64,000 nt of DNA from Pseudomonas putida (GTDB lineage Bacteria; Pseudomonadota; Gammaproteobacteria; Pseudomonadales; Pseudomonadaceae), in contig CP124529.1 in assembly GCA_029953615.1 (NCBI GenBank), forward strand, positions 4,092,501 to 4,156,500, read 5' to 3'. The notes beneath the pieces were generated by a model. That model was not told the DNA's origin and searched no databases. It saw nothing but the letters and a program-made list of their open reading frames with translations. Both the position numbers and the translations under genes were made by a program. Positions 56,784 to 60,284 of the stretch are shown piece by piece (position 1 is the first letter of the stretch; each line of letters starts with the position of its first letter).

Positions 56784-57215
56784 ATGTTGATCAGCCCGCA
56801 TTTCACGCTTGATGAAATGATCGTTTCGCAGTTCGCTGCCAGGGACGGACTCGATAACACACCACCGCCTGAAGCCAGGGCCAACCTGCAACTGCTGTGT
56901 TGTGCGCTGGAACAGGTGCGCGCACTGTTCGATGCGCCAATCATCGTCAGCAGCGGTTACCGCAGTGAGCAGGTCAACCGGGTGATTGGCGGTGCCTCGA
57001 ACAGCCAGCATATCCAGGGGTTGGCTGCAGACTTCACGGTGATCGAAGTCAGCCCGCGGGAAACCGTGCGGCGGATCAGCGAAAGTGCCGTGCCCTTCGA
57101 TCAACTCATCCTGGAATTCGACAGGTGGGTGCACCTGTCGGTAACGCGCGGCACTCCGCGGCGACAGGTGTTGAGCATTCGCAAAGGCAGCGGCTACCTG
57201 CCGGGGCTCCAGTGA
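56784..57215 (+). CDS. M15-family peptidase, phage-lysin-like
   Basis: A 143-residue protein resembling peptidase M15A (L-Ala-D-Glu or D-Ala-D-Ala hydrolases) found in tailed phages. The zinc ligands are likely in SQHIQGLAADFTV (His and Asp) and DRWVHLSV (His); SSGYRSEQVNRVIGG is also typical. There is no signal peptide. ATG 56784 has CAGGAG upstream. It sits alone without other phage genes. It may be a domesticated cell-wall peptidase or a remnant. Confidence 0.82.
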   Translation: MLISPHFTLDEMIVSQFAARDGLDNTPPPEARANLQLLCCALEQVRALFDAPIIVSSGYRSEQVNRVIGGASNSQHIQGLAADFTVIEVSPRETVRRISESAVPFDQLILEFDRWVHLSVTRGTPRRQVLSIRKGSGYLPGLQ

Positions 57216-57221
57216 AGCGCA

Positions 57222-57265
57222 TTGACGGCAGCAAGGGGATGTTCGTATGCTGTATATAAATACAG
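57222..57265 (+). promoter_or_regulatory. LexA-controlled promoter (SOS box)
   Basis: A -35 TTGACG (57222-57227) and -10 TATGCT (57246-57251) with an 18-bp spacer are followed by CTGTATATAAATACAG (57250-57265), which differs from the E. coli SOS consensus CTGTATATATATACAG at one central base. The box overlaps the -10 and start region, as expected for LexA repression. It lies 15 bp before the gene at 57281. Confidence 0.9.
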
Positions 57266-57280
57266 TATCAGGGTGAAGCC

Positions 57281-57589
57281 ATGCTCAATGTCGAGCAACT
57301 CAAGTACAGCGTCAACCGCATGCCCGTCGAGCGGGTGGCCGACGCGGTCCTGGAACTGCGCCTCGAAGGCCTGGTGACCGACGAGCGCACGCCGTTTGGC
57401 AAGGTCCACTTCAATACCTGTTTCGCCGAGATCGAGGCCTTGTTCCAGCGTGCCGGCTACCATCGCGGGCTGGATGTGGTGGGTTACCAGGGGTTGCTGT
57501 ATGCGCTCTACGACCCGGGCCGCTGGGAGCCCGTGCAGGTTCTGCGCTGGCTCAAGGAGCGCAGCGAGGCGATGGCCCAGGCTGGTTGA
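57281..57589 (+). CDS. SOS-controlled small protein of unknown function
   Basis: A 102-residue soluble protein, MLNVEQLKYSVNRMPVERVA onward, with ALFQRAGYHRGLDVVGYQGL and a C-terminal VQVLRWLKERSEAM. I do not recognise the family; it is not YebG, SulA, RecX or a polymerase accessory protein. Predicted character is mixed helix and strand with no membrane segment. AGGGTG stands before the ATG. Its promoter has a near-consensus LexA box, so expression should rise with DNA damage. The pseudouridine synthase gene follows after about 50 bases and may be co-transcribed. Confidence 0.85.
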   Translation: MLNVEQLKYSVNRMPVERVADAVLELRLEGLVTDERTPFGKVHFNTCFAEIEALFQRAGYHRGLDVVGYQGLLYALYDPGRWEPVQVLRWLKERSEAMAQAG

Positions 57590-57640
57590 GGGCGCGGGCT
57601 TGGGGGATAATGCGCGGCCGTGAACGTTTCGAGCCCTGCC

Positions 57641-58525
57641 ATGACCACGCCTTTCGACCCCGCCCGCCAGCAAGCCAGCACGGTGTGCCTGCCTCCCGGT
57701 AACTGGGCGACGGTGCTCGACTGCCTGTGTGACCATTTCAAGGCCATTGATCGGGCCCAATGGCTCGACCGCTTTGCCCGTGGCCGGGTGCTGGATGCCG
57801 AGGGGCGGGCGGTGTCGGCCGAACTGCCCTACAAGCGCGGCATGCGTTTGCACTATTTCCGCGAAGTGCCGAACGAGCGGCCGATCCCGGTGCAGGAGGT
57901 GGTGCTGCATGTGGATGAGCACCTGGTGGTGGCCGACAAACCGCATTTCCTGCCAGTGACGCCGACCGGTGAATACGTCGAGCAGACCTTGCTTCGCCGC
58001 CTGATCCGCCGCCTGGGCAACCCGCACCTAGTGCCGTTGCACCGTATCGACCGGCATACCGCCGGGCTTGTGCTGTTTTCCGCCAACCCGCAGAGCCGCA
58101 GTGCCTACCAGCGGCTGTTCCCCGAGCGACGCATAGACAAGCGCTACCAGGCCATTGCCGCGGCCATGCCGCAGCATGCATTTCCGCTGGTGCACAAAAG
58201 CCGCCTGGTGCATGGCGAGCCGTTTTTTCGTATGCATGAGGTAGAGGGCGAGGCCAACAGCGAAACCTTGGCCGAAGTGCTGGAAAAGCACGGCGAGCTG
58301 TGGCGTTACGGGCTGTCGCCGGTGACTGGCAAGACCCACCAGTTGCGCGTGCACATGGCGGCGTTAGGGGCGGGGATCTGCAACGACCCGTTCTATCCGC
58401 AGTTGGTCAATGAAGAGGATGACTACCAGCGGCCGCTGAAGTTGCTGGCGCAGAGCCTGCGCTTTGCAGACCCGCTGAGCGGGGAAGAGCGCTATTTCGA
58501 GAGCGGCTTGCAGCTGGATTGGTAA
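57641..58525 (+). CDS. RluA-family pseudouridine synthase
   Basis: A 294-residue pseudouridine synthase. The catalytic Asp is in VPLHRIDRHTAGLVLFSANP, and VVADKPHFLPVTPTGEYVEQ and LSPVTGKTHQLRVHMAALGA are typical of the RluA group; the N-terminus (LPPGNWATVLDCLCDHF) looks like a degenerate S4 domain. Which uridine in rRNA or tRNA it modifies is not evident. I use ATG 57641; a GTG at 57620 would add seven residues. It may be read through from the SOS-controlled gene upstream. Confidence 0.9.
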   Translation: MTTPFDPARQQASTVCLPPGNWATVLDCLCDHFKAIDRAQWLDRFARGRVLDAEGRAVSAELPYKRGMRLHYFREVPNERPIPVQEVVLHVDEHLVVADKPHFLPVTPTGEYVEQTLLRRLIRRLGNPHLVPLHRIDRHTAGLVLFSANPQSRSAYQRLFPERRIDKRYQAIAAAMPQHAFPLVHKSRLVHGEPFFRMHEVEGEANSETLAEVLEKHGELWRYGLSPVTGKTHQLRVHMAALGAGICNDPFYPQLVNEEDDYQRPLKLLAQSLRFADPLSGEERYFESGLQLDW

Positions 58526-58578
58526 TGCAAGCTCAAGCCTGCGCTGCCTTGCTCAACCCCTGACAAACCTGCGCAATC

Positions 58579-58668
58579 CTTGTGGGGGCGGGCGTGCCCG
58601 CGAAGCCGGCGACTCGGGGCATGGCACCGGCTTCGCCGGTGTTCGCGGGCACGCCCGCTCCCACAGGG
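58579..58668. repeat. Inverted REP pair (GGCGGGCGTGCCCGCGAAGCC type)
   Basis: Arms at about 58579-58608 and 58627-58668 lie between the convergent pseudouridine synthase and aerotaxis receptor genes. Confidence 0.9.
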
Positions 58669-58718
58669 ATAGCGTGTGCCTTGAGCATGCGCTATCCCTT
58701 TAGGTGGCAAGCTGGATT

Positions 58719-60284
58719 TTAACGGTTGAACCGCTCCACCAGCGAGTACTGGGTACCCGCCGTGCTGGTCAGCTCTTCGCTGAGCAGTGCCGAGTGCTGT
58801 GCCTGTTCGGCAGTCTGGTCGGCCAGTTCGGCAATGGTACTGATGTTACGGCTGATTTCGTCAGCCACTGCAGTCTGCTCCTCGGTTGCCGCGGCAATCT
58901 GGGTGGCCATGTCGGTAATGTTGGCCACCGCTTCGCTGATGCCCACCAGCGCCTCGTCGGCCTGCATCACACGGTCGACGCCTTCCTGCGCCTGTCGATG
59001 GCCGGCTTCCATGGTCAGCACGGCATTGCTGGCGGTTTGTTGCAGCTTGGCGATCAGCCCGTGGATCTGCCCGGTGGATTCGGCAGTGCGCTGGGCCAGC
59101 TGGCGCACTTCGTCGGCCACCACGGCAAAGCCGCGGCCCATTTCACCGGCACGTGCCGCTTCGATGGCCGCGTTAAGCGCCAACAGGTTGGTCTGGTCGG
59201 CGATGCCCTTGATCACATCGACCACGCCACCAATCTCGTCGCTGTCCTTGGCCAGTTGCGTCACTGTCTGACCGGTCTCGCCCACCGCCGCCGACAGGCG
59301 TTCGATGGCGTCGCGGGTTTCACCGGCAATCTGCCGGCCCTGGCTGGTCAGGCGGTTGGCTTCCTGGGTGGCATCGGCGGTGCGCTGCACATGGTTGGCC
59401 ACTTCCTGGGTGGTGGCGGCCATCTGGTTGACCGCAGCGGCGACCTGCTCGGTCTCTACTCGCTGACGTTCCAGGCCCGAAGAGCTCTTGTGCGCCAGGG
59501 CGTCGGACTGACGCGCCTGTTCGCTCAGGTGTTCGGCGCTGTCCTGCAGGCGGGTCAGGCAGGTTTTCATGCGCGCGTCCTGGCTGAGCATGGCCATTTC
59601 CAGGCGCGCCTGCACGCCACGGCTGTCGGTGTACATTTGCGCGATCAGCGGGTCGGAGGTGGTCTGTTCGGCCAGGCGCAGCAGGCGCTTGAGACCGCGC
59701 TGCTGCCAGCCCAGGCCCAGCAGGCCCAGCGGTACGGAAAGCCCGGCGGCCAGGGCGAAGCCCCAGGAATGGCCCAGCCAGTTGCCGATCAGGAAGCCTA
59801 CCTGGCTGATCAGGATGAACGGCAGCCAGTCCTGCAATACCGGCAGCCACTTGTCCCGACGGGGTACCGGCGGCTTGCCCTGGTTGATGCGCTGGTACAG
59901 TGCCTCGGCGCGGCGGACCTGCTCGGCGGTAGGCTTGACCCGCACCGATTCGAAACCGACTACCTGATTGTTGTCGAAGATCGGCGTGACATAGGCGTTG
60001 ACCCAGTAGTGGTCGCCGGACTTGCAGCGGTTCTTGACGATGCCCATCCACGGCTGGCCCTGCTTGAGCGTTTGCCACATGTGGGCAAACACCGCTGGCG
60101 GCACGTCGGGGTGGCGCACCAGGTTGTGCGGCGCGCCGGTCAGCTCCTCGCGGGTGAAACCACTGATCTCGATGAAGGCATCGTTGCAGTAAGTGATCAC
60201 ACCTTTGGCATTGGTGGTGGAGATCAACCGCTGCTGGGCAGGGAAAGTCCGTTCTCTCTGGGTAATCGGCTGGTTGTTACGCAT
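58719..60284 (-). CDS. aer: Aer-type aerotaxis/energy-taxis receptor
   Basis: A 521-residue methyl-accepting chemotaxis protein of the Aer type. It has an N-terminal PAS domain (about 15-120; [50 protein letters not shown]) expected to bind FAD, a central hydrophobic hairpin ([35 protein letters not shown]) and a C-terminal signalling domain with [20 protein letters not shown] and [20 protein letters not shown]. It has no periplasmic domain. ATG 60284 is preferred. From memory, KT2440 has three such receptors and the one beside acnA (PP_2111, Aer2) mediates metabolism-dependent taxis. Confidence 0.93.

Follow-up and report, generated by a model that had tools for sequence, protein, structure and literature searches.

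A conserved PA0922 ortholog under a LexA box in Pseudomonas putida, predicted to encode a small winged-helix SOS protein

The window analyzed here, a stretch of 64,000 nucleotides from Pseudomonas putida (GCA_029953615.1, contig CP124529.1, positions 4,092,501 to 4,156,500 of the forward strand), contains a gene for a protein of 102 amino acids that is followed on the same strand, after a gap of 51 nt, by a gene for an RluA-family pseudouridine synthase (Table 1); for the latter, a GTG at 57620 could serve as the start instead. The initial annotation had described a promoter upstream from the small gene with TTGACG, an 18-nt spacer, and TATGCT, its -10 element overlapped by a LexA box, and this layout was confirmed at 57222-57265: the promoter spans 57222-57251, and the box is perfect, shares its first two bases with the end of the -10, and leaves 15 nt to the ATG. 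No second promoter-like (sigma-70-like) site was found in 57100-58750 (shuffle mean, 0.3). A comparison of 16 putida-type promoters showed strong conservation of the -10 and the box, moderate conservation of the -35, and no conservation of the spacer.

Table 1. Features of the PA0922-type locus, in positions of the window
Feature	Position	Strand	Evidence
-35 element TTGACG	57222..57227	+	promoter scan; moderately conserved in 16 putida-type promoters
-10 element TATGCT, final two bases within the LexA box	57246..57251	+	promoter scan; TATG-CT strongly conserved
LexA operator CTGTATATAAATACAG (predicted)	57250..57265	.	pattern search and conservation in orthologs
102-amino-acid SOS gene, PA0922 ortholog, predicted small winged-helix protein	57281..57589	+	ORF, orthologs, model
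GATAAT, likely -10 of the synthase's own promoter (inferred)	57606..57611	+	conserved in orthologous gaps
RluA-family pseudouridine synthase	57641..58525	+	PF00849; TIGR00005 below cut-off

In a protein search of plasmid records, the sole match to the 102-amino-acid protein was the P. aeruginosa hypothetical protein WP_003086015.1 (NZ_CP131792.1), which is 104 amino acids long and 74% identical over 96 amino acids (residues 1-96). Its gene is divergent from dinB, with tRNA-Met between the two and mprF close by, and has a perfect box, CTGTATATTCGTACAG, 52 nt before its start. The record is that of an 847-kb P. aeruginosa plasmid with an apparent chromosomal dinB-PA0922-mprF segment at 667-677 kb (L280), which would reflect either capture from the chromosome or an issue of assembly; the locus tags of mprF and its neighbors in P. 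aeruginosa are presumed ones. By its neighborhood (divergent from dinB, LexA box), we identify WP_003086015.1 as PA0922, which is described in a passage of PMC8944484 as divergent from dinB, equipped with a LexA box, and a member of the LexA regulon, is entered in a table of PMC1250226 as 3.7-fold upregulated with H2O2, and is listed in a gene-chip comparison in PMC12431658. The passages of these three papers give no function for PA0922. On the basis of the 74% identity and the dinB-divergent neighborhood with its box, the window gene was identified as the PA0922 ortholog, an orthology supported by sequence, single copy, and box, and we are highly confident that it represents PA0922 in the P. 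putida group and belongs to the LexA regulon.

The proposal that the product resembles no familiar SOS protein stands as far as family matches are concerned, since none was found in Pfam (E 0.001), NCBIfam, PHROGs, or PDB sequence searches at the thresholds used, but it fails in that the gene is the ortholog of a published SOS gene; likewise, the expectation of undescribed biology is fair for the function of the protein but too strong for its regulation, already published for PA0922. YebG, DinI, SulA, and UmuD are small SOS proteins under LexA boxes, and the 102-amino-acid protein is like them in size and in lying below such a box but differs in having no Pfam or NCBIfam match. It gave no match to the YebG family (PF07130), which does match the same genome's own yebG, a separate gene with its own box. 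The orthologs of the two species share a similar full-length protein and an upstream LexA box but differ in context: the gene is divergent to dinB in P. aeruginosa, whereas in the present genome it precedes the RluA-family gene, and dinB lies elsewhere. A separate perfect LexA box (L009:1485-1516) precedes the start of that dinB by about 15 nt, and two tRNA-Met genes lie beyond it. This box stands in contrast to work cited in a passage of PMC8944484, in which no induction of P. putida dinB by damage was seen.

Among the genomes sampled, the PA0922 family was seen only in Pseudomonadaceae. Orthologs were present in 79 of the 144 genomes searched, namely, in 79 of 89 from the same genus (10 of the 89 gave no match) and in none of 55 from outside it. 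Two alignments were derived, A1 with 36 of the 79 sequences kept and A2 with 77 kept of 143 after removal of sequences shorter than 95 amino acids or at least 97% identical to a kept one. Searches with the 36-row alignment matched 221 of 398 genomes in the family, spread over 5 of 19 genera (177 of the 398 were without the gene), 11 of 293 in the order, and 1 of 321 in the class, the last being the own genome; with the 77-row alignment, 14 of 398 genomes in the phylum matched, all of them Pseudomonadaceae. One divergent copy (L254, genome G1029) matched the profile over residues 16-101 with an E value of 5.6e-20 and has a perfect box upstream. A phage origin was considered and rejected: 50,697 phage records gave no match, and of 33 stretches of IMG/VR that matched a pattern, none encodes a relative.

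The product would be a soluble protein of about 102 amino acids, and structure prediction suggests that it is probably a single winged-helix domain. Of five models (pLDDT of 88.1, 63.8, 60.9, 47.3, and 42.3), one was confident (mean pLDDT 88, pTM 0.76), and in this best model the topology H1-S1-H2-H3-S2-wing-S3 was seen, with H1 at residues 16-29, S1 at 31-33, H2 at 41-46, H3 at 48-57, wing strands at 65-69 and 73-77, and a C-terminal helix at 84-101. A shallower alignment gave a model with a pLDDT of 58, whose fold search yielded no usable result. The invariant residues lie mostly in putative H2-H3 (HFNxCxAExExxxxRxGxH), the wing, and the part after the wing. No Foldseek match against the PDB reached an E value of 0.001, and a viral fold search returned two uncharacterized phage proteins (TM 0.56-0.66, probability 0.99-1.00, E values of 0.0017 and 0.076). 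The Pfam family most often touched was Csm6_6H, with weak matches in 19 of 77 members (best E value, 0.00083), which we counted against the fold, as by its name it is not a winged helix of such a kind. PA2723 (PDB 6tcb) has 7% identity to the 102-amino-acid protein, and a literature search found no papers naming it. Our assignment of PA2723 to DUF3509 (PF12021) is a guess, and 6tcb was not found when the PDB was searched with one DUF3509 member; DUF3509 was also absent from the Pfam-scan matches of the 102-amino-acid protein and the 77 members, and a search of the own genome for it gave three loci, all other than the window gene.

Two alternative roles were considered. The product might be a transcription factor that is induced in the SOS response and uses its winged helix to act on second-wave genes; the predicted topology and the many weak Foldseek matches to MarR-type and other winged-helix regulators would fit such a role, but putative H3 carries the invariant residues Glu50 and Glu52, the predicted pI is 5.7, and all the fold matches are weak; we consider this reading unlikely. 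Just as doubtful is the reading that the protein modulates RecA, LexA, SSB, or the beta clamp, with a role like that of DinI and a different fold, as might be supposed for a small, acidic product under a LexA box. Residues 3-34 show a weak profile similarity to the protein-binding C-terminal winged helix of RPA32, which falls short of significance (E values of 0.3 to 0.8) and is outscored in the same list by a rhodanese-like chain (E value of 0.095); PF08784 was touched weakly by 4 of the 77 members, with 0.14 as the lowest E value, and the window protein itself has no Pfam match at an E value of 0.001.

The downstream synthase gene raised a further possibility, put forward in the initial annotation, that both genes are induced together as one LexA-controlled operon, such that DNA damage would induce RNA modification. 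They lie on one strand, 51 nt apart, in an order conserved in 63 of the 79 loci and in all 80 loci of a named-genome set (best 80 of 458), and since no terminator was found between them, read-through from the SOS promoter into the synthase gene is possible. Against this, GATAAT occurs in the gap before the synthase at 61 of 63 loci and GGATAATG at 58 of them, whereas a control stretch gave 0 of 63; none of the 63 gaps holds a LexA box. The two genes are not adjacent in 16 of the 79 genomes, where the small gene has kept its box (14 perfect, two with seven of eight letters), and of 18 synthase copies located elsewhere, not one has a perfect box in the 300 bp upstream or GATAAT in the 150 bp upstream; 12 of these 18 show, by eye, another promoter-like pair, TTTGAC and CCTAAT. 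The conserved, likely promoter element of the synthase and the box-free relocated copies indicate that LexA regulation belongs to the small gene; the synthase is probably outside the SOS unit, a shared LexA-controlled operon is very unlikely, and the suggested link from damage to RNA modification was not borne out.

By chance, the bare consensus CTGT-N8-ACAG should turn up about once in such a window (mean, 0.87; at least one match in 60 of 100 shuffles), so the box alone is no proof of LexA control, and its position, inner sequence, and conservation carry the case. Three sets of loci were compared: the 79 ortholog loci from the 144 genomes searched; 80 loci from a named-genome collection (best 80 of 458 relatives), of which 78 are titled Pseudomonas and two Pantoea sp., the latter taken by us for mislabeled; and 62 extra loci, counted after removal of L211, which shares its genome with L045, and of L254, for which no start was placed. 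The sets are not independent, as eight named-set loci duplicate loci of the first set. The 600 bp upstream contain a perfect box in 77 of 79 loci (the other two, L086 and L088, match in seven of eight letters), in 79 of 80 loci of the named set, again the best 80 of 458 (L171 matches in six of eight), and in 58 of 62 extra loci (L230, L231, L234, and L240 match in seven of eight), compared with none in the equally long downstream stretch in all three sets. Within 200 bp upstream, 74 of the 79 loci had a perfect box, against a dinucleotide-shuffle mean of 0.2; of the remaining five, three have it 505-515 bp upstream, beyond an extra gene, and two match in seven of eight letters. Apparent losses of the box in L033, L038, L057, L199, and L207 were dismissed, as a umuD-like gene is inserted there and the box precedes it, 498-515 bp upstream from the SOS gene. 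Thus, close relatives have not lost the box, and the strongly LexA-repressed layout initially proposed is in keeping with predicted LexA control that is strongly supported by phylogenetic footprinting together with the published control of PA0922. That the box arose by chance and the gene lies outside LexA control, as its expected frequency might suggest, is exceedingly unlikely and was rejected on its family-wide conservation, with none in the controls, and on the published LexA control of PA0922.

The LexA box accompanies the SOS gene through different neighborhoods. Seven of the 16 synthase-free loci were read by eye, and an aminotransferase, small lipoprotein, or transporter-like gene is often near; at some loci the SOS gene lies within a few kilobases of an endonuclease I gene (supported by a Pfam match for one). 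At one such locus (L243:523-1322), the SOS gene and an endonuclease I-like gene, recognized by eye, run in divergent directions; the LexA box separates them, about 95 bp from the nuclease start, and the nuclease gene might be LexA controlled too. L243 is also one of four loci (L230, L240, L241, and L243; four genomes of one related genus) with a proline-rich ORF of 46-56 amino acids between the box and the SOS gene; it starts 160-185 bp upstream from the SOS gene and in three of the four contains QLPLPF, which presumably resembles a clamp-binding motif. In Pseudomonas sp. UMAB-08 (L171:3208-5306), a LexA box 1.8 kb upstream is followed by a umuD-like gene, an overlapping umuC (above the curated cut-off), and then the SOS gene; the UmuD-like protein has Gly where aligned UmuD has Ser, which we take to be the catalytic Ser of UmuD. 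A lone umuD-like gene without umuC stands between the box and the SOS gene at eight further loci (L033, L038, L057, L173, L185, L186, L199, and L207) from at least seven genomes, L033 and L173 being probably one genome, and the UmuD-like products are 142-151 amino acids long in the five loci read. The conservation of the box shows that predicted LexA control has been retained across the family through several relocations of the gene, and this speaks for a genuine function when DNA is damaged.

In the whole genome, 38 perfect LexA sites were found, compared with 13 for a reversed control pattern, and the inner form CTGTAT-N4-ATACAG is present at six of the 38, the box of the window gene among them; the remaining five are found near yebG, a PA0069-family radical SAM gene, two DUF1654 genes, and a 105-amino-acid ORF. 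Two LexA genes score above the TIGR00498 cut-off, with a perfect box about 10 bp before the first. The two DUF1654 genes (L002 and L103, near 197 kb and 5.415 Mb) are only distantly related (29% identity), each by a perfect LexA box, and the 105-amino-acid ORF (L102:1449-1801, at 5.376 Mb) begins about 20 nt after the box CTGTATACATATACAG and matches no Pfam family at an E value of 0.01.

By analogy with PA0922 and from general knowledge of the SOS response, LexA bound to the box over the -10 would block RNA polymerase, and RecA on single-stranded DNA would trigger self-cleavage of LexA, upon which the gene would be transcribed. The product might then bind DNA or a replication or repair protein during damage tolerance, perhaps aiding translesion polymerases, a DNA- or partner-binding role that we put forward tentatively. 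The hint of damage tolerance comes from the umuD-umuC operon in L171, the lone umuD-like gene in eight loci, and dinB adjoining in P. aeruginosa. These translesion neighbors may instead be hitchhikers on the LexA promoter and may show no more than a gathering of SOS genes at such promoters; among the 227 loci searched (duplicates included, with about 1.5 kb of flank in many), UmuC is beside the gene in one and dinB in none, and in P. aeruginosa a tRNA separates it from dinB. A bolder proposal, which we regard as quite unlikely, is that the PA0922 family represents a Pseudomonadaceae-specific small winged-helix SOS effector that cooperates at stalled forks with the Y-family polymerases UmuC, DinB, or ImuB and would serve this lineage as a manager of polymerases, either beside UmuD or as its substitute. 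As a whole, the explanation that we favor, with some reservation, is that the window gene is the LexA-regulon ortholog of PA0922 and that its product would be a winged-helix protein with a role in damage tolerance.

LexA control is already known through PA0922, and the gene is a conserved, real SOS gene. A passage of PMC7427096 puts the LexA regulon of P. aeruginosa at 15 genes, a small number, and PA0922 is one of those members for which no function was found in the literature searched. For this gene, our results do away with the attractive idea, for which we found no support, that DNA damage is linked to RNA modification; they also provide a testable fold and a set of invariant residues and hint at a link to translesion synthesis.
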